Assembly (NCBI GenBank): GCA_024224595.1
Contig: JAAENI010000804.1
Coordinates: 1 to 39,435, forward strand
Direction of reading: 5' to 3'
Source of the DNA: Hyphomicrobiales bacterium
GTDB lineage: Bacteria; Pseudomonadota; Alphaproteobacteria; Rhizobiales; Rhizobiaceae
DNA length: 39,435 bases
Under the pieces are notes generated by a model. It was not told the origin of the DNA. It saw nothing but the letters and a program-made list of their open reading frames with translations, and did no database searches. A program made the position numbers and the translations under genes. Positions 1 to 19,904 of the stretch are shown here, piece by piece (position 1 is the stretch's first letter; each line of letters starts with the position of its first letter).

Positions 1-582
1 ATTGAGTTTTTCACGTGTGGTTTGCAGATCAGGATCGATACGTGAGGTGCCCCGCACTCTGCCTAGTGTATCGACAAATTGGCGTGAAACCCGGCGCAGT
101 GCTTCATTTATCCCGCGTTGGAAGGCCTCCTTGTTATCAAAATAAGGAGTTCGTTTCCATTCAAGTCCAAAAAAACCAATTTTTGACAAAACCATGGAAG
201 GAATCCAAACATTGCGATTGACATTAAAATCGATCAGATCGCGAGATATCTGTATAACACTTGATCGCCCGCATGCAGAATCCGAATTGCCGGCAGATGG
301 AATAAGCTCACCGGGTTCAGCCTGTTTTCCCTTGAAATCATAAGATGCAACATAATCAGGATCGAATCCGGACCAGCGTTGAGTTTGCCAGAAGAAATAA
401 CCATAGGAAAGCAGCCACCCCAAAAGCAAAATTCCCAAAAGACCCCGCAAAAGCCAGCCGCGCCTTGTATACCAGCTACTCACCCAGACGAATGGCAAAA
501 GCAGCCAGGAAACTAATTTTGAAATGCCTCGTAAAAGGAGCGCAAACATTTCTTTGATGTATTCAACAACAGGATCAAGCAT
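1..582 (-). CDS. DUF2333-like membrane-anchored protein, 3' part cut by window edge
   Basis: My translation of the reverse complement from ATG at 582 is open to the window edge: MLDPVVEYIKEMFALLLRGISKLVSWLLLPF...GILLLGWLLSYGYFFW...SRDLIDFNVNRNVWIPSMVLSKIGFFGLEWKRTPYFDNKEAFQRGINEALRRVSRQFVDTLGRVRGTSRIDPDLQ. N-terminal TM segment; the motif pattern recalls the DUF2333 family. Not in the ORF track because it has no stop inside the window. Confidence 0.7.
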   Translation of the reverse strand, partial: MLDPVVEYIKEMFALLLRGISKLVSWLLLPFVWVSSWYTRRGWLLRGLLGILLLGWLLSYGYFFWQTQRWSGFDPDYVASYDFKGKQAEPGELIPSAGNSDSACGRSSVIQISRDLIDFNVNRNVWIPSMVLSKIGFFGLEWKRTPYFDNKEAFQRGINEALRRVSRQFVDTLGRVRGTSRIDPDLQTTREKLN

Positions 583-590
583 GGATGCTC

Positions 591-1868
591 CTAGTGATAA
601 TATCGCTGGCGGTAACCAGCACGGTCAGACAGATAATTGCGGCCGATTTCTTCGACCGCAAATTCACGAAAACTCTCCGGCCAGCTTTCATATTCTTTAT
701 AAAATGCCGGTTTGTTATAGATATAGCGCATCATATAATCGAAGGGCAGATATTCGGAAATCAGCCGATTGATCAAAAAACGATCTTTATGCTCTGGCAT
801 GGCCCGGCACAAGACAAATCGGTGCTGAGGATTAATTTCGTTCATATCCAGCTCGGACCAGTCACTCAGCTTGGCACTGGCCCAGGCTATCAGGGGAATA
901 CTGCCCTCATTTTCTACCAGTCCGGCATTGCGCGCAACCCAGGATTTGGTCCAGCTTTGCGTGGCCTGATTAAAATCCAGTTCCGGTTCAAGTTCTCTGG
1001 CCAGCCAGAAGACCACCATTTGTGAGCGCATATTCAGCAGACCGGTGCGTTCAATCCATGATCCGCGCGGCAACTCAATACGACCGGTATCAACCAGAAA
1101 ACTGAAAACCGATTTTTTATCTTCAATATCCAGATAACTCACCTGCCAGGGTCGCGAGCGCCTGAATCCGGGTGCGTCCGGATTGCCTATTACGGTTGTT
1201 GTTTCTTCGTCAATAAATATATAAATGCCACCAAAATGCGCCGTCCAGAAGGTATCATGTCTGAATATGACTTCATCAGGCAACAATGTATTAGTGCGTA
1301 TATCGCCGGTGACTTTGACAGTTTCAACCATGTCATTGAGTAATTGATCATTGCGCCAACCATCCGGTTCCTTGCGCAATCGTTCCATCATTGTTTTCAG
1401 ATGCACTGATTTTGCCAGTAATTTCGAAGGCGTCGAGAGTTTGAATTCAACCTGTTCAATCGCCAGAAGTTCCTCAATATCCTCAACCTTGAACACTGAA
1501 TCCTCAATCTCACCAAAGACTACATCTTTAATCGTCAGTGCGTATAATGCGCGCGCGTTCAAATTAAAAAACTCAACCATCAGATCTTCGGTATTGGAAA
1601 AAAACGTGTGCACAACCGGTAGTTCTGACTGGCTGGGCGTTAATATGATGAACCGGCGGTTGATACCTTCCGGATCCAGATATTGCATATCTTCCAGTTC
1701 TTCAGCAACTTCCGGTGAGAATCCGGTCATATCGATCTGAAATTCTTTCAGCTTGGTGGGTGACAGACCAAAACCTTCCAGCGCACGATTATAGCGCTCG
1801 ATCATATGCGGTTCATTGACTGTATAAAGACTGCCGAATATCAGGCTTTTTTCGCGCAAGAATTTCAT
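591..1868 (-). CDS. Uncharacterised 425-aa protein (possibly DUF6638-type)
   Basis: Long ORF (MKFLREKSLIFGSLYTVNEPHMIERYNRALEGFGL...), tightly spaced between the AAA ATPase and the DUF2333-like gene on the same strand. The family name is from memory and tentative. Confidence 0.8.
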   Translation of the reverse strand: MKFLREKSLIFGSLYTVNEPHMIERYNRALEGFGLSPTKLKEFQIDMTGFSPEVAEELEDMQYLDPEGINRRFIILTPSQSELPVVHTFFSNTEDLMVEFFNLNARALYALTIKDVVFGEIEDSVFKVEDIEELLAIEQVEFKLSTPSKLLAKSVHLKTMMERLRKEPDGWRNDQLLNDMVETVKVTGDIRTNTLLPDEVIFRHDTFWTAHFGGIYIFIDEETTTVIGNPDAPGFRRSRPWQVSYLDIEDKKSVFSFLVDTGRIELPRGSWIERTGLLNMRSQMVVFWLARELEPELDFNQATQSWTKSWVARNAGLVENEGSIPLIAWASAKLSDWSELDMNEINPQHRFVLCRAMPEHKDRFLINRLISEYLPFDYMMRYIYNKPAFYKEYESWPESFREFAVEEIGRNYLSDRAGYRQRYYH

Positions 1869-1956
1869 GGCGTGATCCCAATGTCCTCAATGTCGCAAAG
1901 TCTACTGCAACCAATGACAGTTTCCAATTTCATCAGGTAATTTTGAACGCCGTCCA

Positions 1957-3867
1957 TCAAGCCCCCCACCGGCCATCTTTTTTCATTTCACCCATGATCT
2001 TAATGGCTTTTTCACGCTGCCGTTCGCGCCTGATAATCTCTTCTACGGCGGCGTTGTCAGACTTATCCGTATAGCGGAACTCTGAATCCGCGTAACGGTT
2101 GATTTCCTGCATCACCATTTCGATGCTGAATGGATTTCGAAGTTCAGCAATCATATCTTTTTTTTCATCAAAGGGTTTGTGCATAAAGTCTTCCGGTTTT
2201 TCAAACCACTCATCAGGCAAATCAATATCCATCGCCCGCATCTTGATCGCATCGGTGATATTTTTAATCGCTCGCCCGGTAAATCGCGGTTCAGCCTTTT
2301 TGATCATATACAGATAAGTACCGATATCAGCCATGGTTTTAAATTTGCCATGTTTATCCATGAAATGATCATAAACATCTTCCAGACCGTCTTCCTGGGG
2401 CTTTGAGTAATCCTCGTAGGCTTCTGACACGGCCTTTTCAATAATCTGCGCATCAAACAGTTTATGCTCGCCCAGATCAATCCTGTGATTTTTACCGGCC
2501 AGCAATACAAAGATATCAATATAATCTGCGCGCGTCTGCGGTCCATCAACCAGCCAGCGCGCACCCGCCCTCTGCCGCAGCGCATCATCGACATTTTCAG
2601 GATAATTGGAGAACATGCCAAATGAACAGTTTCCCCGCACCACTGTTGATGCGCCGGCAAAACTCTCCATCAGCACCGCGGTCACTTCCTGTTGTCCCGC
2701 AGACGCACGATCATCAGAACGTTTAGCCGCAACCTGATCAATATCATCAACTGTGCCAAATCCAATTGTGCGTGTATTGAGCACATTTGTGACGAATTGT
2801 TTGCAGTTCTGACCGGATTTACCCTGATAGGAGGAAATCTGGTCAACGCCAAAATTCTCGTAGGTAAAACCATAACCGGCGATCTGGCAATAATCATATA
2901 CGATACCGGCGATCATTTGAATGAGTATAGTTTTACCTGTACCCGGTGCTCCATCACCGATAAAAGTGAATAAAAATCCGCCCATTTCAACAAAAGGATT
3001 CATCTGCCGGTCAAAATCATAGGCCATCAGCATCTTGGCCAGTTTCATCGCCTGATATTTGGCAATATGGTTACCGATGATTTCATTGGGTTTTTTAAAT
3101 GTCATCACCAGTGGTTTGGATTTGGTTCCCGGTGCCACGTCAAAACCATTAAGTTCAAACCCATCGCTATCAAGGCGAATATGAGTTTGTTCAAATTCTC
3201 CAAGACCGGTGAATCGATTTTTCCGGCTCAACAGATCTTCCAGTGCTTCATCGCAAAACGCTCTAACCCGAGCGGACAAAACTGCATCATCAGGCGCATC
3301 AATAACAACACTTTCCAACCCGGCAACCAGCGTCTTGAGGCCATCCAGCGGTGTGTCAAAATTCCAGTTTGGCGGTTCAACTTCACTTGCTGTTTCGCTG
3401 CCAGCTTCAATCATTTGTTTGAGATAAGCACCAGCCGAAAACGCAGAAACATATGAACTTGCTTCTGTCAGGGCACGAAACTGCTCAGCTTTTTCACCTT
3501 CCAGCATCGAAGAAGCATTGCGTTGACGCAGCGCATCCAGCCCCGTCTGTCTGGCAAATAAATCAGCAACTGCCAAAGCAACGCTAATCGCACGCCGGGT
3601 CTTGAACAGGATATTATGTTGCACCGGGGTCAACAGCCGGTCTTCTTCAGTGACTGAACTGAGGCTCTTTTCCAGTTCAACTTTTCGCGATGAACGAACT
3701 CCAGCTGTCGATACTGTTGAAACAAACCGCCGCCGGGTGCCCGCCAGCTCTGTATTGCTTTTACCTTTGGATGCTTCGAGCACCACACATTGGGTCACCA
3801 GACTCTGAGCCGCAGAAATGTGTTTTTTGATATCATCTTCGTTTAACGTCGTCAGTCCAATATCCAT
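1957..3867 (-). CDS. AAA+ family ATPase with long uncharacterised N-terminal region
   Basis: Walker A GDGAPGTGKT; Walker B-like GFGTVDDID; sensor-1-like MFSNYPENVDDALRQRAGAR; about 280 aa N-terminal to the ATPase core. Confidence 0.9.
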   Translation of the reverse strand: MDIGLTTLNEDDIKKHISAAQSLVTQCVVLEASKGKSNTELAGTRRRFVSTVSTAGVRSSRKVELEKSLSSVTEEDRLLTPVQHNILFKTRRAISVALAVADLFARQTGLDALRQRNASSMLEGEKAEQFRALTEASSYVSAFSAGAYLKQMIEAGSETASEVEPPNWNFDTPLDGLKTLVAGLESVVIDAPDDAVLSARVRAFCDEALEDLLSRKNRFTGLGEFEQTHIRLDSDGFELNGFDVAPGTKSKPLVMTFKKPNEIIGNHIAKYQAMKLAKMLMAYDFDRQMNPFVEMGGFLFTFIGDGAPGTGKTILIQMIAGIVYDYCQIAGYGFTYENFGVDQISSYQGKSGQNCKQFVTNVLNTRTIGFGTVDDIDQVAAKRSDDRASAGQQEVTAVLMESFAGASTVVRGNCSFGMFSNYPENVDDALRQRAGARWLVDGPQTRADYIDIFVLLAGKNHRIDLGEHKLFDAQIIEKAVSEAYEDYSKPQEDGLEDVYDHFMDKHGKFKTMADIGTYLYMIKKAEPRFTGRAIKNITDAIKMRAMDIDLPDEWFEKPEDFMHKPFDEKKDMIAELRNPFSIEMVMQEINRYADSEFRYTDKSDNAAVEEIIRRERQREKAIKIMGEMKKDGRWGA

Positions 3868-3911
3868 AAATTCCTCTTAAATCTGCCCGTCAGGTCCAAA
3901 AATTCGGCCGC

Positions 3912-5048
3912 TTACATATTTCGCAAAATCTGATTACCCGATACAATATTCTTCTGATATCCCTCAAAAATCTCATCCGCTTTGCCGGAGGCATAAATCG
4001 CCTGATAGGATTCATGGGGTACCAGTGCATGGCGAAGGAACGCGCTGACACCCTGCCTTGCACAATCCACATCTTCACTATTGATGTAATACTGATTGCG
4101 TGCCGGTTCCCCCCCCCATATCCCCCATTTTGCCGGAGTCTCATGGATTGAATATATTTCCTGCATCGTCCAGGTCATCAACCATGAATTCTCAGGCTTG
4201 CGAACCTTGCCCAATATTTCCTCCACCAGATGGCCGTGTTCGGTAATACCGGCGTGATAAAAAGGTCCCAGAACAAACCGCCTCACTTGTTTGGGATGCA
4301 GCATTTCAAAATCCTTGTCCATCGAACTGGCAACCGTTGAAAGGGTCAGGGAATAGGAAGAGTTTTTTTCACAAAAATCATCAAACTTGTGAGCAAGATC
4401 TGGATTGAGCAAACCATCCACCGGGAGGGGAATATTCACAGCTTTATTCAGTTTGCCGTTCCTCTTGACCAGCGTTTTGACAATATCAGAACTCGAATCT
4501 TCAATCACCGCCATATAGACCAGCGGCAAATTAGCGCTGCCATCAAAATACCCCCAATGGACAATGTAATAGGGTCGTTTTGTCTTTGGATTGACCGAGA
4601 CACGAATGGTACGAGGCAGAACCAGTGGCGAAAAGTGTTTCTGTTTTAAAACCGTACTCAAATAAGAACGTTCAGCCATCGATTTTTGTAGCTGGGTGGG
4701 AAATTTTTTCTTGCGCAGAATGAAATCAATCATTTCTTCGCGCAAATCCTCTTCACTGGGCATCGTCTTCAACCGGCTTTTGGCGGTTTTGCGATCATTT
4801 TCCAGTTCCAGCACATTGCGAAATCCGGGAAAGCCACTTTCGGCCTTTGATATCTGAAACCGGTCCGCATAAGCAATGCGATCTTCCCAGCTGGCAAATG
4901 AACCGCGCAAACGGCCCAGATAGCTGGACACCACTGCACCAATCAGGTCGTGCTGATAGAGCGGTGAATCATCTTCGCGCAAAAATGTATCAAGCCCGTT
5001 CAGGGCCTGTTCCATAGCATTAAAATATTGCTTGACCGGCAAATTCAA
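3912..5048 (-). CDS. Uncharacterised 378-aa protein in AAA+ cluster
   Basis: Long ORF, same strand and tight spacing with its neighbours; no family recognised. Confidence 0.8.
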   Translation of the reverse strand: MNLPVKQYFNAMEQALNGLDTFLREDDSPLYQHDLIGAVVSSYLGRLRGSFASWEDRIAYADRFQISKAESGFPGFRNVLELENDRKTAKSRLKTMPSEEDLREEMIDFILRKKKFPTQLQKSMAERSYLSTVLKQKHFSPLVLPRTIRVSVNPKTKRPYYIVHWGYFDGSANLPLVYMAVIEDSSSDIVKTLVKRNGKLNKAVNIPLPVDGLLNPDLAHKFDDFCEKNSSYSLTLSTVASSMDKDFEMLHPKQVRRFVLGPFYHAGITEHGHLVEEILGKVRKPENSWLMTWTMQEIYSIHETPAKWGIWGGEPARNQYYINSEDVDCARQGVSAFLRHALVPHESYQAIYASGKADEIFEGYQKNIVSGNQILRNM

Positions 5049-5084
5049 AATGAACTTTCGTATTATCAGAAAAATTAATTGTGA

Positions 5085-6167
5085 TCAGGAAATATAATTC
5101 GCAGAATTATGCTTCTCCATTACATCCTCAAAACGTCTTGAGAATGCATCATCAGCCAGTTTTTTGCGCCGCTGAATATCCTTTGTCGACACCATATTTT
5201 TCTCATGCATCTCCAACAGATCACCAATGTGGGATTGGGCAGCCGCACCAATACCGGCCATGGTTTCTTCCGCTGCCGTATCGACTTTATTGCCCAGCGT
5301 ATTAATCTTGTGAGCGACATCCTGTTGCGCAGCGGTTTTAAGGGAATCTTCCAGTGCTTTGTATAAAACCACCCGCTGTTCTGTATCTATGGTCAGTTTA
5401 TTGATCAGTGTTTGCTGCGCCGCCAACTGGTTGTTCAGGGAATCAACAAACGTCTGGAACATTGAAGTATAACGCTCCAGTGTCTGGCTTTCAGCCAGCA
5501 ATTCCTGCTCCTTTGCCTGTTGTTTATTATATTCTGTCGCCAGTTCGGAACGCTCTGCCTCCAGTTTTGTGCGTTTTTTTTGTTTAGTCGAAGCGGCAAT
5601 TTTGTTTTCTAGATCCATCAGCAACGGGTTGATTTCTTCAATCCGGGTCTGTGTTGCTTCCAATTCGTCCATCGTCCCCTGACGCCGGTCAATGACCTTG
5701 CGAAGACTGGCCTCAGATGCTGCATATCGGCTATCCAGCGTATCCTTCTGAGCTTTCAGGATACCAACAATCCTGTCTGATTTGGTCAGTAGTTCTGAAA
5801 GATTGCCTGAAAGCGAAGTCTGACGCACGCGATCAGAGCGCAGGCGCTGCATTTTTTGTTTTGAAAAAATACCAACTATTTTTTCCCAACCCGAATAGCT
5901 CTTCATACTTTCAAATTCGGCGCCAAATACATTGGTTGCATCTTCCAATCCGATGATCAGATCAGCAATATTGCCTTCCATCACTTTTTGCTGAGCCAGG
6001 ACATCATTGATGCGGGCATTTTCAATATCAAAATCAATTTGACCGATCGTTTCCGTATCAGCAAACTTGTCCAGAATAACACCGCTTTGCTCAAGCTTGG
6101 ACTTCATTTCGTCCATTTCAAGGCGGGTCTTCTTAATCTCATCATCAAACTTGGCTAAACTGGCCAT
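5085..6167 (-). CDS. Coiled-coil protein (possibly TelA-like topology)
   Basis: Heptad-rich, K/E/Q/L/A-rich sequence over nearly its full length (MASLAKFDDEIKKTRLEMDEMKSKLEQ...); first gene of the minus-strand cluster. Confidence 0.8.
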   Translation of the reverse strand: MASLAKFDDEIKKTRLEMDEMKSKLEQSGVILDKFADTETIGQIDFDIENARINDVLAQQKVMEGNIADLIIGLEDATNVFGAEFESMKSYSGWEKIVGIFSKQKMQRLRSDRVRQTSLSGNLSELLTKSDRIVGILKAQKDTLDSRYAASEASLRKVIDRRQGTMDELEATQTRIEEINPLLMDLENKIAASTKQKKRTKLEAERSELATEYNKQQAKEQELLAESQTLERYTSMFQTFVDSLNNQLAAQQTLINKLTIDTEQRVVLYKALEDSLKTAAQQDVAHKINTLGNKVDTAAEETMAGIGAAAQSHIGDLLEMHEKNMVSTKDIQRRKKLADDAFSRRFEDVMEKHNSANYIS

Positions 6168-6551: not shown

Positions 6552-6628
6552 GCACCCGTAGCTCAGCTGGATAGAGTGTTGGCCTCCGAAGCCAAAGGTC
6601 GCGCGTTCGAATCGCGCCGGGTGCGCCA
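6552..6628 (+). tRNA. tRNA-Arg (anticodon CCG), CCA encoded
   Basis: GCACCCG...CGGGTGC acceptor stem, discriminator G, CCA; anticodon arm TTGGC-CTCCGAA-GCCAA; T arm GCGCG-TTCGAAT-CGCGC. Confidence 0.97.
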
Positions 6629-11582: not shown

Positions 11583-12365
11583 TCACATATTCTTCTCAAA
11601 AAATTTCCTACGATGCCGCTCTAAAAATTCTTGGGCAGGTAAAAACCGCTTCGGCAATTCTAGCCTGCCCGTATCAACTTTCTCCAATTCGCTCCCTGCA
11701 ATAGCCGGAACATGAGAGGCAGTGTTCATTTTGTATTCTTCATCAAATGTGATCAGGTGTCGATCAAAAGCCCGGTCATGCAGGGCATTCAGACAAATCC
11801 CATTCGTAGGGTTAACACGAATTTCTGCGTCATCTTTCCAGGGTACAATATGACTGGCATTCAACAATCGGCTGTCTTCGATTCCCGTCAGAGCACAACG
11901 ATTTTGGTAGGAAACCAGTATCATTTTGCGAAATAAGTCTTGCCCAATTCGACGGGTTACCACTACTTGTTTTTTACTTCCCTCAAAATCGAATTTAGCC
12001 CCTTCCTCAGCTACTCCCAGTGATAGTTTTGTCTCTAAAGGCAACGAACTTGAAGGTTTAATATGACAACTTTGTTGTGCAAAAATTTCAATAATTCTAT
12101 CAGGAACTGCCATAAATTCAGCCCACACAATTCTATCCGCTTGACTGGTATTTCCCATACCTTTTTGTGGGATACTTGTATCGAGAGCAGCAAGGTTAAC
12201 CAATTTCAAAGCGACGGCGCTTGGGGTTCGTTTTAGAGATTTAGCCAGATTGATTACATCAGGATTGCCTTTGTGAAGCCTCCCAAAAGCGGTATTGAGA
12301 TAAAGCACAAACGCATAGCGCACTTCATTTTCCGACCAATTTCGACGCTCCGCCAAATTTGCCAC
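11583..12365 (-). CDS. HNH endonuclease domain protein
   Basis: C-terminal HNH-type motif: YQNRCALTGIEDSRLLNASHIVPWKDDAEIRVNPTNGICLNALHDRAFDRHLITFDEEYK. Confidence 0.85.
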   Translation of the reverse strand: MANLAERRNWSENEVRYAFVLYLNTAFGRLHKGNPDVINLAKSLKRTPSAVALKLVNLAALDTSIPQKGMGNTSQADRIVWAEFMAVPDRIIEIFAQQSCHIKPSSSLPLETKLSLGVAEEGAKFDFEGSKKQVVVTRRIGQDLFRKMILVSYQNRCALTGIEDSRLLNASHIVPWKDDAEIRVNPTNGICLNALHDRAFDRHLITFDEEYKMNTASHVPAIAGSELEKVDTGRLELPKRFLPAQEFLERHRRKFFEKNM

Positions 12366-14500: not shown

Positions 14501-15529
14501 ATGCGCGCAAGCAAAGTTGTTCATGTGGTCAGTTGCCATGCGGAAGGGGAAGTTGGCGACGTTATTGTTGGAGGGGTTGTGCCACCACCGGGTTCCACCC
14601 TTTGGCAGCAACGCGCATGGATTGCCGAAGATCAGACTTTACGAAATTTTGTTCTCAATGAGCCGCGAGGCGGTGTCTTTCGCCATGTCAATTTGCTGGT
14701 CCCTCCCACTGACCCGAAAGCCCAGGCCGCGTGGATCATTATGGAACCGGAAGATACACCACCGATGTCCGGATCAAATTCGATTTGTGTCTCTACAGTG
14801 CTGCTTGAAACAGGTATTATCGAAATGAACGAGCCGGAAACCAGAATGACATTGGAAGCTCCTGGTGGTCTGGTTGAAGCAACTGCCCAGTGTAAAAATG
14901 GCAAAGCCGAACGTATCACGATTCAAAATGTAGCTTCCTTCGCTGACAAGCTGGACACATACCTTGAAGTCGAGGATATGGGTACCCTTTTAGTAGATAC
15001 AGCCTATGGTGGTGACAGTTTTGTCATCGTTGATGCACAAGCACTCGGTTTTTCCATCACGCCTGATGAAGCTCGCGATATTGCTGTTACCGGCACGAAA
15101 ATCACCAACGCGGCTAATCAGCAATTAGGATTTACCCACCCGCTCAACAAAGACTGGTCTCATATCTCTTTTTGCCAGATTGCCGCACCTGTTAAAACCG
15201 TCGATGGCATCAAAACAGCCGCCAATGCAGTCGCCATCAAGCCAGGGAAACTGGACCGCTCCCCCTGCGGCACCGGTGTATCCGCACGAATGGCTGTAAT
15301 GCAGGCAAAAGGACAAATGTCCGTCGGCGAAAATTTTGTCGCTCTTTCTATCATCGGTTCACGTTTTGACGGACAAATTCTGGAGGTGGTAAAACTGGGT
15401 GATAAAGACGCTATCATCCCAACAATATCCGGGCGAGCCTGGATTACGGGAACCCATCAACATATGCTTGATCCCGATGACCCCTGGCCAAGCGGTTACA
15501 AGCTGAGCGACACATGGCCAAATTTGTAA
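14501..15529 (+). CDS. Proline racemase family protein (4-hydroxyproline epimerase / trans-3-hydroxyproline dehydratase type)
   Basis: [29 protein letters not shown] (first catalytic position Ser), [16 protein letters not shown] (second catalytic Cys). Confidence 0.92.
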
Positions 15530-15573
15530 ACCTGATCTGCGTCTATTCTAATTATTGGATGCCATAAGAAACC

Positions 15574-16827
15574 ATGACCAAAACCTATTCTGCATTCAAT
15601 ATTATCAAAGAGGCTTTCAAAGGCCACAAGGGCTGGAGCCCTGCATGGCGCAGCCCAAAGCCAAAAGCCCAATATGAGGTCATTATCATCGGCGGCGGCG
15701 GCCACGGATTAGCTACCGCTTATTATCTGGCAAAAAACCACGGTGTCAAAGACATTGCCATTGTCGAAAAAGGCTGGCTTGGTAGCGGCAATACCGGGCG
15801 CAATACAACGGCAATCCGCTCGAATTATTTTTACCCCGAAAGCTGTGCACTTTATGATCTGTCGGTGCGCCTCTATGAAAAACTGTCGATTGAATTAAAC
15901 TACAATGTCATGTTTTCCCAACGCGGTCTGATGGTAGTTTTCCACTCTGAAGCTGAAATGGAGATGGCAGTGCGTGGCATGAATGCGATGATGCTTGGCG
16001 GAACTGATGCCAGATTACTGGATGCAAACGAAGTCAAACAACGCGCGCCATTACTCAATTATCGTGCCGATGCTCGTTATCCCATACACGGCGCAGTCAT
16101 ACAGGAACGAGGCGGCACTGCCCGTCATGATGCTGTAGCATGGGGATATGCACGGGCAGCAGATGCTCTGGGTGTCGACATCATTCAAAATTGTGAAGTC
16201 AAAGATGTGATAATTGAAGGCGGCACTATGACAGGTGTTGAAACAAATCTTGGACCAATTCGTGCCTCCCGATTTGGCGCGGCCATTGCCGGGCACTCTT
16301 CTGTACTCGCCAGGATGGCCGGCTATCAACTGCCAATTCACTCCTATGCGTTACAGGCATTTGTATCTGAGCCGCTAAAACCAGTAATCGACGTACTGGC
16401 ATTCTCCTCTACCTATGGTGCCTATATTTCACAATCAGATAAGGGCGGACTGGTCATCGGTGGCGGCCTGGACCGGGTGCCTTCCTATGGGCAGAAAGGC
16501 AATATGCCAATGCAGGAAAACGTATTATCGGGAATAGTTGAATTTGCCCCGGCATTGGCCAAGGTCAAATTAATGCGTCACTGGGCAGGCATCGTCGATG
16601 TTACCCCAGACAGCTCACCCCTGATCGGCCCTTCAGGAGTGGAAGGTCTTTACATAAATTGTGGTTGGGGAACCGGTGGATTCAAAGCTATTCCAGCGGG
16701 TGGATATTTGTTCGCCCATCTTTTGGCAACCGGTAGCCATCATGAAATAAGCCGTCCGTTTGACCCTTCCAGATTCCAGTCCGCCCAATTGATTGATGAG
16801 GGTGCTGCGTCTGGCATCGCGCATTAG
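15574..16827 (+). CDS. soxB: Sarcosine oxidase beta subunit family protein
   Basis: FAD-binding YEVIIIGGGGHGLATAYYLA; GWGTGGFKAIPAGG; followed by SoxD, SoxA and SoxG homologues. Confidence 0.92.
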   Translation: MTKTYSAFNIIKEAFKGHKGWSPAWRSPKPKAQYEVIIIGGGGHGLATAYYLAKNHGVKDIAIVEKGWLGSGNTGRNTTAIRSNYFYPESCALYDLSVRLYEKLSIELNYNVMFSQRGLMVVFHSEAEMEMAVRGMNAMMLGGTDARLLDANEVKQRAPLLNYRADARYPIHGAVIQERGGTARHDAVAWGYARAADALGVDIIQNCEVKDVIIEGGTMTGVETNLGPIRASRFGAAIAGHSSVLARMAGYQLPIHSYALQAFVSEPLKPVIDVLAFSSTYGAYISQSDKGGLVIGGGLDRVPSYGQKGNMPMQENVLSGIVEFAPALAKVKLMRHWAGIVDVTPDSSPLIGPSGVEGLYINCGWGTGGFKAIPAGGYLFAHLLATGSHHEISRPFDPSRFQSAQLIDEGAASGIAH

Positions 16828-16836
16828 GATAAAATT

Positions 16837-17103
16837 ATGCAACAGTTTCCCTGCCCGTTTTGCGGATTGCGCAATGAACAAGAATTCCACTTCGCCGGTG
16901 AAGCCGGCAAGACACGCCCGGATACCATGAAGGAAGTGAGTGCCGAGCAATGGTCGGCCTATCTCAATCATTACAACAACCCCATGGGTAAAACTTGCGA
17001 GATCTGGGTACATTTACCCTGTCAGGAATATTTTGTCATGCAACGTGACACCGTGACCATGGAAGTTTTTGCAAGTGAACAAATACGCAAGGATCTCAAA
17101 TGA
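16837..17103 (+). CDS. soxD: Sarcosine oxidase delta subunit family protein
   Basis: 88 aa; CPFCGLRNEQEFHFAGEA...RP...WSAYL; position between soxB and soxA; overlaps soxA by ATGA. Confidence 0.9.
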   Translation: MQQFPCPFCGLRNEQEFHFAGEAGKTRPDTMKEVSAEQWSAYLNHYNNPMGKTCEIWVHLPCQEYFVMQRDTVTMEVFASEQIRKDLK

Positions 17104-19904
17104 GCGGGTTTCGGGTCCAGAATCGGGGTCTGATTGATCGCCATAAAACCCTGTCGTTTCAGTTTGATGGAAAATCCTGTACCGGTCACCCTGGCGACAC
17201 ACTGGCATCCGCATTGCTGGCAAACGGGATAAAAATAATGGGCCGCAGCTTCAAATATCATCGCCCGCGCGGTGTATGGGGCGCATGGTTTGATGATTCC
17301 AATGCCATCTTTAATATTTCGCTTGGCGCTATCCAATTGCCAAACTGCCCTGCAGCGACGACCTATCTCGAAGATGGCATGCAGGCACGTTCCGTCAATA
17401 CTTTTCCCTCAGCGCGTTTTGACATCAAGGGAGTATTGGACTGGTTTTCTCCGTTTCTGCCAGCAGGATTTTATTACAAAACCTTCATGCGCCCAAATTG
17501 GCATCTGTTTGAGCCGACAATCCGAAAAATGGCAGGATTGGGCAAACTGGATGGCAATATCATTGAGGAATACCAAAGCGACCAGATCCATCAATCCTGT
17601 GATCTGCTGATCGTTGGCGCAGGTCCCGCCGGACTTGCTGCTGCCCTGAGCGCATCACAAAAAGGCAGTTCGGTCGTGCTTGTTGATGATCATGATATTG
17701 CCGGCGGCAGTTCTTACCAGCAGCAATCAAATATCGAAAATAAACCTGCCTCTCTTTGGATCAGAGATCAGATCGCAGCGATTGCTGGAAATGGCGGCCG
17801 CATTTTATTGTCAACCACAGCTTATGGCATTTATGATCACAATCTCGTTGCCCTGATTCAAGATAGTGGTTTTGGTCATGCACCAAGACTTTGGAGAATG
17901 CGCGCCAAACGCATACTGATTGCCACCGGTGCAATAGATCGCCAGATCACCTTTGCCAATAACGATCGACCGGGAATAATGTCGGCGGTGGGTGCCCTTG
18001 AGTTCCTGGGTCGTTATGGCGTTCTGGTGGGTAAAAAAATCGCATTGTTATCCAATAATTCTCACACGCAAAATACAGCAAATCTGCTACGCGAAGCGGG
18101 TGCAGAGGTCGAAACATTTGATACCGGTGATAATTCCCCGGTTGCCATCGGTGGAAAAAAACTGCGCGCCTTGAATATCGATGGAAAATCACATTCCTGC
18201 GATGTCATATTGGCATCAGGTGGATTGACACCTGTTGTTCATCTCTGGCGTCATGGCGGTGGCAGGCTTGAATGGAATGAAGCTATCCAGGCATTCATAC
18301 CGGCACAAGCAACAACTGGCATGCGTGCTGCAGGGGCAGCCAATGGAATATATGAGTTGGATGAAGCTCTGGCGGATGCGCGCGCCGCCGCACTTGATCA
18401 GCCTTCTCCAAAAGTTCAAAGCGCTTACCAGATCAAGGCACTTTTACCGGATATAAATTCGAAAAAGCGCCAGTGGATAGATTTTCAGCACGATGTGACG
18501 GTGAAGGACATTGAACTTGCCGCACGTGAAAATTATTCTTCCGTTGAACATTTAAAAAGATATACCACGCTGGGTATGGCGTCGGACCAAGGCAAAACGT
18601 CAAATATGGCGGGACTGGCGGTGATGGCCTCATTACAAAACCGAACCATCTCTGAAGTTGGCACAACAACATTCCGGCCACCCTTTGTGCCGGTACCATT
18701 CGAACTTTATCGCGGCGTCAAACGACAACAATTATTCAACCCGCCTAAACGCCTTGCCCTTGAGGCTGAACATCGAAATGTCGGTGCGGCAATGGGAGAA
18801 TATGGCGGCTGGTTACGCCCGGCATGGTATGGCGATGATGACCCTCATAACACTATTCGCAAGGAAGTGATTTCAGCGCGAACCCATGTTGCAATCATCG
18901 ATGCTTCCCCACTGGGTAAAATTGAAATCATGGGGCCCGATGCGGAAAAATTTATAAACTTTGTCTTCTACAATACGCTCACCACTCTGAAACCTGGTAA
19001 AATCCGTTATGCGCTGATGCTGAGCGAACGCGGCATTGTTTATGACGATGCGGTGATCACCCGAGTTGATCAAAACAGGTTCATTATATCCTGTTCTTCC
19101 TCCCATGTTGAAGGCGTCAATAATGCACTGGAAGGCTGGCGCCAGGATGGCAACGATCCGGATCGGATATTTGTACATGACACAACACAAAACTGGGCAA
19201 CGATTACATTAAGTGGTCCTAAAGCAGGCGAGTTACTTTCAAAACTCGACATGTCAATTGATTTATCCCCGGATGCATTTCCACATATGACATTTAGGCA
19301 GGCCGATTTTCTGTCTGTTCCCGCCCGCATATCCCGGGTCAGTTTTACCGGCGATCCAAGTTACGAGATTTCAGTGCCCACTTTGCATGCCTCTGCTCTT
19401 TGGTCGGCTATCGCCAAAGCTGGAAAATCAGTTCAGGCGGCTTTTATCGGCGTAGAAGCGCTTTCAATACTTCGGGCTGAAAAAGGCTATATTATTGTTG
19501 GCAAGGATACAGATGGTGAAACCATGCCGCATGATATCGGTTTTTCACAACCCAGGCTTCGCAAAGAATCTGCATTTGTTGGCGACCGGGCACTGCATAC
19601 ACACGCTGCCAATGGACAAAACAGACGTCAACTGGTCGGGCTGATGGTGAAAGGCAATGAATGCAAGATCGTTACAGGCGCACATTTGATAGATCAATCA
19701 GGCAGTAAACCACGTTCCATTGGGTATGTTACCTCCAGTTACGACAGCCCAACACTCGCCCATCCAATTGCGCTGGCATTATTGGAAAACGGTACGGCGA
19801 GAATTGGAGAAAGTGTGGCCGTCTGGAATCAAGGGGATATTCGCCAAGCGACGATTGCCTCTGCGTGTTTTTACGACAAAGGTGGAGGATTACTGAATGC
19901 GTGA
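17100..19904 (+). CDS. soxA: Sarcosine oxidase alpha subunit family protein
   Basis: 934 aa; N-terminal FDGKSCTGHPGDTLASALLANGI, dinucleotide-binding CDLLIVGAGPAGLAAALSA, C-terminal GcvT-like aminomethyltransferase region. Confidence 0.93.
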   Translation: MSGFRVQNRGLIDRHKTLSFQFDGKSCTGHPGDTLASALLANGIKIMGRSFKYHRPRGVWGAWFDDSNAIFNISLGAIQLPNCPAATTYLEDGMQARSVNTFPSARFDIKGVLDWFSPFLPAGFYYKTFMRPNWHLFEPTIRKMAGLGKLDGNIIEEYQSDQIHQSCDLLIVGAGPAGLAAALSASQKGSSVVLVDDHDIAGGSSYQQQSNIENKPASLWIRDQIAAIAGNGGRILLSTTAYGIYDHNLVALIQDSGFGHAPRLWRMRAKRILIATGAIDRQITFANNDRPGIMSAVGALEFLGRYGVLVGKKIALLSNNSHTQNTANLLREAGAEVETFDTGDNSPVAIGGKKLRALNIDGKSHSCDVILASGGLTPVVHLWRHGGGRLEWNEAIQAFIPAQATTGMRAAGAANGIYELDEALADARAAALDQPSPKVQSAYQIKALLPDINSKKRQWIDFQHDVTVKDIELAARENYSSVEHLKRYTTLGMASDQGKTSNMAGLAVMASLQNRTISEVGTTTFRPPFVPVPFELYRGVKRQQLFNPPKRLALEAEHRNVGAAMGEYGGWLRPAWYGDDDPHNTIRKEVISARTHVAIIDASPLGKIEIMGPDAEKFINFVFYNTLTTLKPGKIRYALMLSERGIVYDDAVITRVDQNRFIISCSSSHVEGVNNALEGWRQDGNDPDRIFVHDTTQNWATITLSGPKAGELLSKLDMSIDLSPDAFPHMTFRQADFLSVPARISRVSFTGDPSYEISVPTLHASALWSAIAKAGKSVQAAFIGVEALSILRAEKGYIIVGKDTDGETMPHDIGFSQPRLRKESAFVGDRALHTHAANGQNRRQLVGLMVKGNECKIVTGAHLIDQSGSKPRSIGYVTSSYDSPTLAHPIALALLENGTARIGESVAVWNQGDIRQATIASACFYDKGGGLLNA

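Follow-up and report, generated by a model that had tools for sequence, protein, structure and literature searches.

The window analysed here, 39,435 nucleotides of a Hyphomicrobiales bacterium, is the whole contig C804 (JAAENI010000804.1) of a 926-contig genome assembly and carries at its start an operon whose defining unit is four genes, CC360-P378-AAA-DUF6638, which are kept or lost together (Table 1). Tentatively, we read the four products as one AAA+ machine that may remodel a coiled-coil assembly, resembling Vps4 and ESCRT-III in its working and possibly equipped with a lineage-specific membrane link. The five co-oriented, tightly spaced open reading frames (ORFs) recognised in a preliminary description of this DNA, which lie one after another on the minus strand and are separated by 36, 44, 88 and 8 bp, were confirmed as real genes, well beyond chance. 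Homologues of all of them occur in dozens of genomes, and comparison with the same-genus locus L078 gave ratios of nonsynonymous to synonymous divergence (dN/dS) of 0.039 for CC360, 0.055 for P378, 0.025 for AAA and 0.059 for DUF6638. As the synonymous divergence (dS) of these genes is 1.3-1.8, the low ratios indicate strong purifying selection on each of the four complete genes.

The four-gene unit emerges from the 20-kb surroundings (shorter at contig ends) of 34 relatives found by AAA or DUF6638, which come from two lineages of Alphaproteobacteria and, in one case, from a genome of a different class. All four genes are present in each of the 34 loci, with CC360 orthologues at 34-89% identity, and their order and strand are the same in 33. 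The single exception (G032) has the operon split at the AAA-DUF6638 junction, with DUF6638 and DUF2333 about 10 kb off on the other strand. Presence across genomes is coupled as well: AAA was found in 23 of 61 relatives and CC360 in those 23 plus one (Fisher 6e-16). Carriers include rhizobia, Sinorhizobium meliloti among them, Rhodobacter-like bacteria and vibrios. DUF6638 occurs in 20 of 299 genomes sampled across the phylum, and in the non-alphaproteobacterial class the known carrier is the only one among 274 genomes sampled. The distance matrices of CC360, P378 and AAA correlate with each other at r 0.956-0.981 and with that of DUF6638 at r 0.75-0.79, in both cases uncorrected for species phylogeny.

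On chromosomes, the core lies at one stable site between the housekeeping genes choXWV, tdk, fhs and trpE/G, and in six of seven core-less genera examined from the window's family the four genes are missing together from the conserved site choXWV-(tdk)-DUF2333-(fhs)-trpE/G; in the remaining one (G034), choXWV, DUF2333 and fhs are still present but rearranged. With the core genes gone and the surroundings intact, the core acts like a cassette that is present or absent as a whole, next to a DUF2333 gene that stays in place. It also occurs without this neighbour: a second, divergent complete copy (AAA 60% identity) is located on the 1.3-Mb Rhizobium leguminosarum plasmid pRlX5 (L082), which speaks for horizontal transfer of the four genes as a unit, and further copies sit on plasmids of about 0.9 Mb in Vibrio parahaemolyticus (L080) and V. 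vulnificus (L081). The Vibrio plasmid core adjoins mfd, encoding the transcription-repair coupling factor, and a SIMPL-domain gene. The preliminary description had proposed a candidate multi-protein system of five genes; its four core members are collinear as stated above, and the fifth, DUF2333, turned out to be separable. Its view that the cluster is a candidate undescribed system still stands, as we found no described pathway that covers the four-gene operon.

For the motor function, the operon would rely on AAA636, which matches the Pfam family AAA (PF00004) at 1.8e-10, in agreement with the AAA+ ATPase noted earlier, and whose profile is closest in the PDB to a VCP-like ATPase, YME1-type proteins and the 26S Rpt ATPases (E 2e-5 to 1e-3). 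It is a classic AAA ATPase by its motifs (Table 1), with Asp-Asp instead of Asp-Glu in Walker B, Asp375 occupying the usual position of the catalytic Glu in all 22 aligned members. The 270-residue N-terminal region matches no family, and no MIT domain was found in the protein by Pfam. The earlier comparison with MoxR/VWA modules is not supported, since the ATPase groups with classic Cdc48/26S-type proteins and Pfam and NCBIfam detected no MoxR-type (AAA_3/AAA_5) or VWA match among the operon proteins.

Two of the motor's companions are new at the level of structure, where “new fold” means only that there is no match among solved structures. P378 matched no Pfam family; its AlphaFold2 model is confident (predicted local distance difference test score (pLDDT) 91.6, predicted template modelling score (pTM) 0.90), and Foldseek against the PDB returned no match at E<=0.001 and none below E 0.2. 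In a viral structure library, the matches were maturation proteins of single-stranded RNA phages at probability 0.08 and a template modelling score of 0.1, none of them credible. The product of gene 4 is a clear member of PF20343 (DUF6638; 7.7e-76), matched along its full length (residues 10-422) at 256 bits, the curated cut-off being 27. This is an uncharacterised family of which we found no mention in the literature searched. Its model (pLDDT 90.4, pTM 0.85) likewise had no Foldseek match in the PDB below E 2.6.

The remaining partner, CC360, belongs to no curated family and retrieves only sub-threshold coiled-coil families from Pfam. A hint to its role is provided by two Rhizobium-type genomes, G030 and R. 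leguminosarum pSK03, in which P378, AAA and DUF6638 are gone from the site and a CC360-like ORF and DUF2333 remain. These orphan genes are intact and keep 13 of 23 invariant residues in region 118-270 of CC360, but only 5 of 16 in region 271-360, where they also carry a 22-residue deletion. In contrast, the complete plasmid-borne R. leguminosarum system keeps all 16. This C-terminal decay in the absence of P378, AAA and DUF6638 is suggestive of a putative docking region for one of the three in the C-terminal third of CC360, a conclusion weakened by the greater overall divergence of the orphan proteins.

Taken as a single machine, the core may work as follows. The AAA protein probably forms a hexamer, by analogy to its family, and would use ATP to pull on and remodel CC360 assemblies by engaging the conserved C-terminal third, with P378 and DUF6638 as possible dedicated adaptors or co-substrates. 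A lineage-specific membrane protein may link the machine to the inner membrane, which would be DUF2333 in Hyphomicrobiales and a small membrane protein plus DUF1523 in Rhodobacter-like bacteria. The most likely role would be membrane or envelope upkeep under stress. We thus infer the hexamer, the physical contact, CC360 as substrate and the membrane role, and with them an arrangement of motor, scaffold and membrane link with a testable interface. We propose this reading because of the linkage and order of the genes, their all-or-none presence, their co-divergence, the invariant ATP motifs and the C-terminal decay of the orphans, and also because the core stands alone on plasmids and membrane-protein genes lie directly downstream of it in both chromosomal lineages. 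A possible lead on regulation comes from S. meliloti, in which SMc02733 presumably belongs to this operon, to judge by the succession of locus tags near choX and shmR. In a screen, the envelope-stress regulator ChvI bound a fragment within SMc02733 (PMC3687685).

Several observations weigh against a single membrane-linked machine. Co-divergence partly reflects shared species history, and with Asp in place of the Walker B Glu in all members, hydrolysis may be slow or regulated. Simple hydropathy predicted no membrane segment in CC360, P378, AAA or DUF6638; the membrane proteins next to the core vary with the lineage, and the plasmid copies lack them. Besides, a CC360-like protein persists in two orphan lineages that have no motor. 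An all-or-none four-gene machine that combines an ATP motor with two proteins of confidently modelled structure but without a solved counterpart deserves attention. If CC360 were a polymer disassembled by the motor, bacteria would possess a system for scaffold remodelling that is driven by an AAA protein, in analogy to ESCRT, and as the orphan CC360 genes suggest where the motor may dock, this idea is directly testable.

A first alternative extends the unit by one gene, such that DUF2333 and the core would form an obligate five-protein envelope complex in Hyphomicrobiales and a core-less DUF2333 would be a leftover. The truncated 194-residue copy in the window has no Pfam match. However, the full homologue in the same genus (L078:5977-7089) matches DUF2333 (PF10095) at 2.2e-22, and full-length homologues at this position range from 2.2e-22 to 2.5e-19, above the curated cut-off, so that the DUF2333-like assignment made earlier was correct. 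The hydropathy of the DUF2333 protein is borderline for a membrane segment, with a maximum of 1.64 at residue 14 in the window, while the homologue peaks at 1.54 (residue 47); by eye, hydrophobic segments are visible near the N terminus. Wherever a Hyphomicrobiales locus extends far enough (21 of 21), DUF2333 is the gene immediately downstream of DUF6638; it is also present in every testable core-positive relative and is still attached to DUF6638 in the split operon. Yet among the 32 of 61 relatives that have DUF2333, eleven are without the AAA gene, and in several of these it persists at the same choXWV-tdk...trp site with its reading frame intact. Outside the Hyphomicrobiales chromosomes, the core does without it: 11 Rhodobacter-like loci have DUF1523 in its place (PF07509, 1.6e-65 for one) and most of them also an 89-residue membrane protein downstream of the core, while Vibrio and Rhizobium-plasmid cores adjoin neither DUF2333 nor DUF1523. 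An obligate five-protein complex is therefore doubtful, and the part of anchor that the preliminary description had suggested for DUF2333 is not supported as a defining one. It is a linked but separable neighbour outside the conserved core, and DUF2333 and DUF1523 are both uncharacterised families, each tied to one lineage. In the literature searched, DUF2333 is mentioned once, as an uncharacterised gene near a type VI secretion system hcp locus in Pseudomonas.

A second alternative concerns descent rather than composition: CC360 could belong distantly to the PspA/ESCRT-III superfamily, in which case common ancestry, and not analogy alone, would make the operon a bacterial system of ESCRT-III plus AAA. 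Comparison of CC360 with a mixed PspA alignment by hhalign yielded a probability of 85% (P 5.9e-6), well apart from controls with reversed PspA (P 0.08), heptad-shuffled PspA (0.015-0.1) and SMC, the best natural coiled-coil control (1e-3). The register of the alignment was unchanged in split halves, and the CC360 pattern GIFSK ... NLxELLxKSD resembles GIFSR ... NxxxLLxKAED of PspA. However, the signal fell to P 0.015 with classical PspA alone, to 1.4e-4 with an enlarged CC360 set and to 0.005 with an untrimmed enlarged PspA set, and is thus fragile; it depended on the mixing of divergent PspA sequences. In addition, PF04012 was not among the top families for 24 CC360 members at E up to 10, and no solved PspA appeared among the CC360 profile matches. 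Having failed these robustness tests, the homology is only hinted at and may serve as a lead, and we consider descent from this superfamily unlikely. The PspA/Vipp1 phage-shock systems, which have AAA-associated variants (Ravi et al., 2024; PMC11237479), are comparable in that a coiled-coil protein sometimes stands beside AAA ATPases and membrane partners. They differ in that searches with the PspA family do not pick up CC360, whose profile similarity is fragile as described above, and PspB/C/F, Toastrack and band-7 partners were not found in these operons.

Functional likeness, in which an AAA motor would act on a coiled-coil partner, is a claim separate from family membership. According to Makarova et al. 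(2024; PMC10936438), Vps4 and ESCRT-III occur as a pair only in archaea and eukaryotes. The operon resembles this pair in that a classic-type AAA gene stands next to the gene for a long coiled-coil protein, which the motor likely contacts at its C-terminal part. In contrast to the known pair, the system here is bacterial, has no MIT or ESCRT-III family match by sequence and includes two extra obligate proteins without a solved fold match; its AAA profile is closest to Cdc48/Yme1/Rpt rather than to Vps4, with Asp replacing the Walker B Glu. A true bacterial counterpart of Vps4/ESCRT-III, composed of a PspA/ESCRT-III-related filament protein, a dedicated AAA disassembly ATPase and two new-fold adaptors, would be a rather improbable description.

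A role in anti-phage defence or genetic conflict is suggested by the AAA-DUF6638 junction, where the gap exceeds 250 nt in 16 of 33 loci compared with 6 of 89 at other junctions. In about ten loci, small nuclease or toxin-like genes are inserted there: VapBC-type, with VapC-like toxins in four loci as judged by eye, a DUF559 nuclease in S. meliloti (8.5e-35) with look-alikes in two loci, a gene with a weak HEPN/DUF4145 match and a DUF3825 type. The AAA, CC360, P378 and DUF6638 proteins might then sense or assemble, with the nuclease or toxin as exchangeable cargo, and the patchy presence through loss of the whole cassette and the copies on megaplasmids would fit such a system. On the other hand, PADLOC gave only AAA-level matches to TRIP13/IetA at 5e-4 or worse and the coiled coil of JetC at 0.09, the flanks are housekeeping genes at one stable chromosomal site, no phage copies were found and about half of the loci are without cargo. 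We therefore regard a conflict system as very unlikely. A phage or viral origin of the operon was rejected, as the matches were at the AAA level only. The insertions indicate that the operon consists of two blocks, CC360-P378-AAA and DUF6638(-DUF2333), which tolerate separation. Such cargo could reflect neutral insertion between two transcription units or point to a role in conflict; as the housekeeping flanks are stable and matches to phages or defence systems are lacking, we favour neutral insertion.

Finally, the idea that the operon is a stress system of the Ter/TelA type and CC360 a divergent TelA, which takes up the earlier comparison to TelA/Ter modules, is highly implausible: size, helical content and the partner-rich, stress-like operon recall TelA of tellurite and phage resistance, but hhalign gave a probability of 1% (P 0.05), no better than controls, PF05816 (TelA) had no match in the own genome and 60 relatives, operon carriers included, the Rhodobacter-like genomes G126 and G142 have a true TelA elsewhere in addition to the operon, and the operon products matched no further Ter protein family. 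TelA identity for CC360 was thus rejected on profile comparison and genome search.

Table 1. Genes, motifs and junction of the operon in window coordinates, and related loci in other genomes
Feature	Position	Strand	Residues	Description
CC360	5085-6167	minus	360 aa	core gene 1; nearly all-helical coiled-coil protein
P378	3912-5048	minus	378 aa	core gene 2; TTG start; soluble alpha/beta protein
AAA636	1957-3867	minus		core gene 3; classic-type AAA+ ATPase
DUF6638 protein	591-1868	minus	425 aa	core gene 4
DUF2333 protein	1-582	minus	N-terminal 194 codons only	contig starts at base 1
CC360 C-terminal third	5088-5357	minus	271-360	16 invariant columns; proposed contact region
Walker A, GDGxPGTGKT	2929-2958	minus	304-313	invariant in 22/22 except x
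Walker B region, IGFGTVDDID	2737-2766	minus	368-377	D374, D375, D377 invariant in 22/22
Sensor 1 and arginine fingers (second region of homology)	2557-2607	minus	Asn421; Arg431/Arg433/Arg437	invariant in 22/22
Sensor 2, FTGRAIKN	2260-2283	minus	529-536	F529, G531, R532, N536 invariant
AAA-DUF6638 junction	1869-1956	minus		88 bp here; place of gene insertions in relatives
Hydrophobic segment of DUF2333 protein	388-456	minus	43-65	likely membrane helix, read by eye
Orphan CC360-like genes	L126:7982-9181; L217:5791-6864			intact, C-terminally altered; Rhizobium-type genomes
Loci with junction inserts	L057, L060, L062, L066, L070, L074, L079, L047, L050, L048			

Some further observations concern the ends and surroundings of the operon. 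In the DUF2333 fragment, dS is only 0.46 (window 1-582 against L078:5977-6558), compared with the higher values of the other four genes, and nucleotide identity reaches 89-91% in these final 582 bases at the contig end versus about 80% in the other four genes, which could stem from recombination or from an assembly join with another strain. Immediately upstream of the operon, a divergent tRNA-Arg (CCG) gene is located at 6552-6628, and tRNA genes are a kind of site used by islands for insertion. Farther away, a protein with an HNH_2 endonuclease domain (PF13391, 2.7e-14) is encoded at 11583-12365, and a proline racemase, a flavin adenine dinucleotide (FAD) oxidoreductase and a sarcosine-oxidase-alpha-like protein follow in series at 14501-19904, which probably serve proline-betaine or hydroxyproline/sarcosine catabolism.

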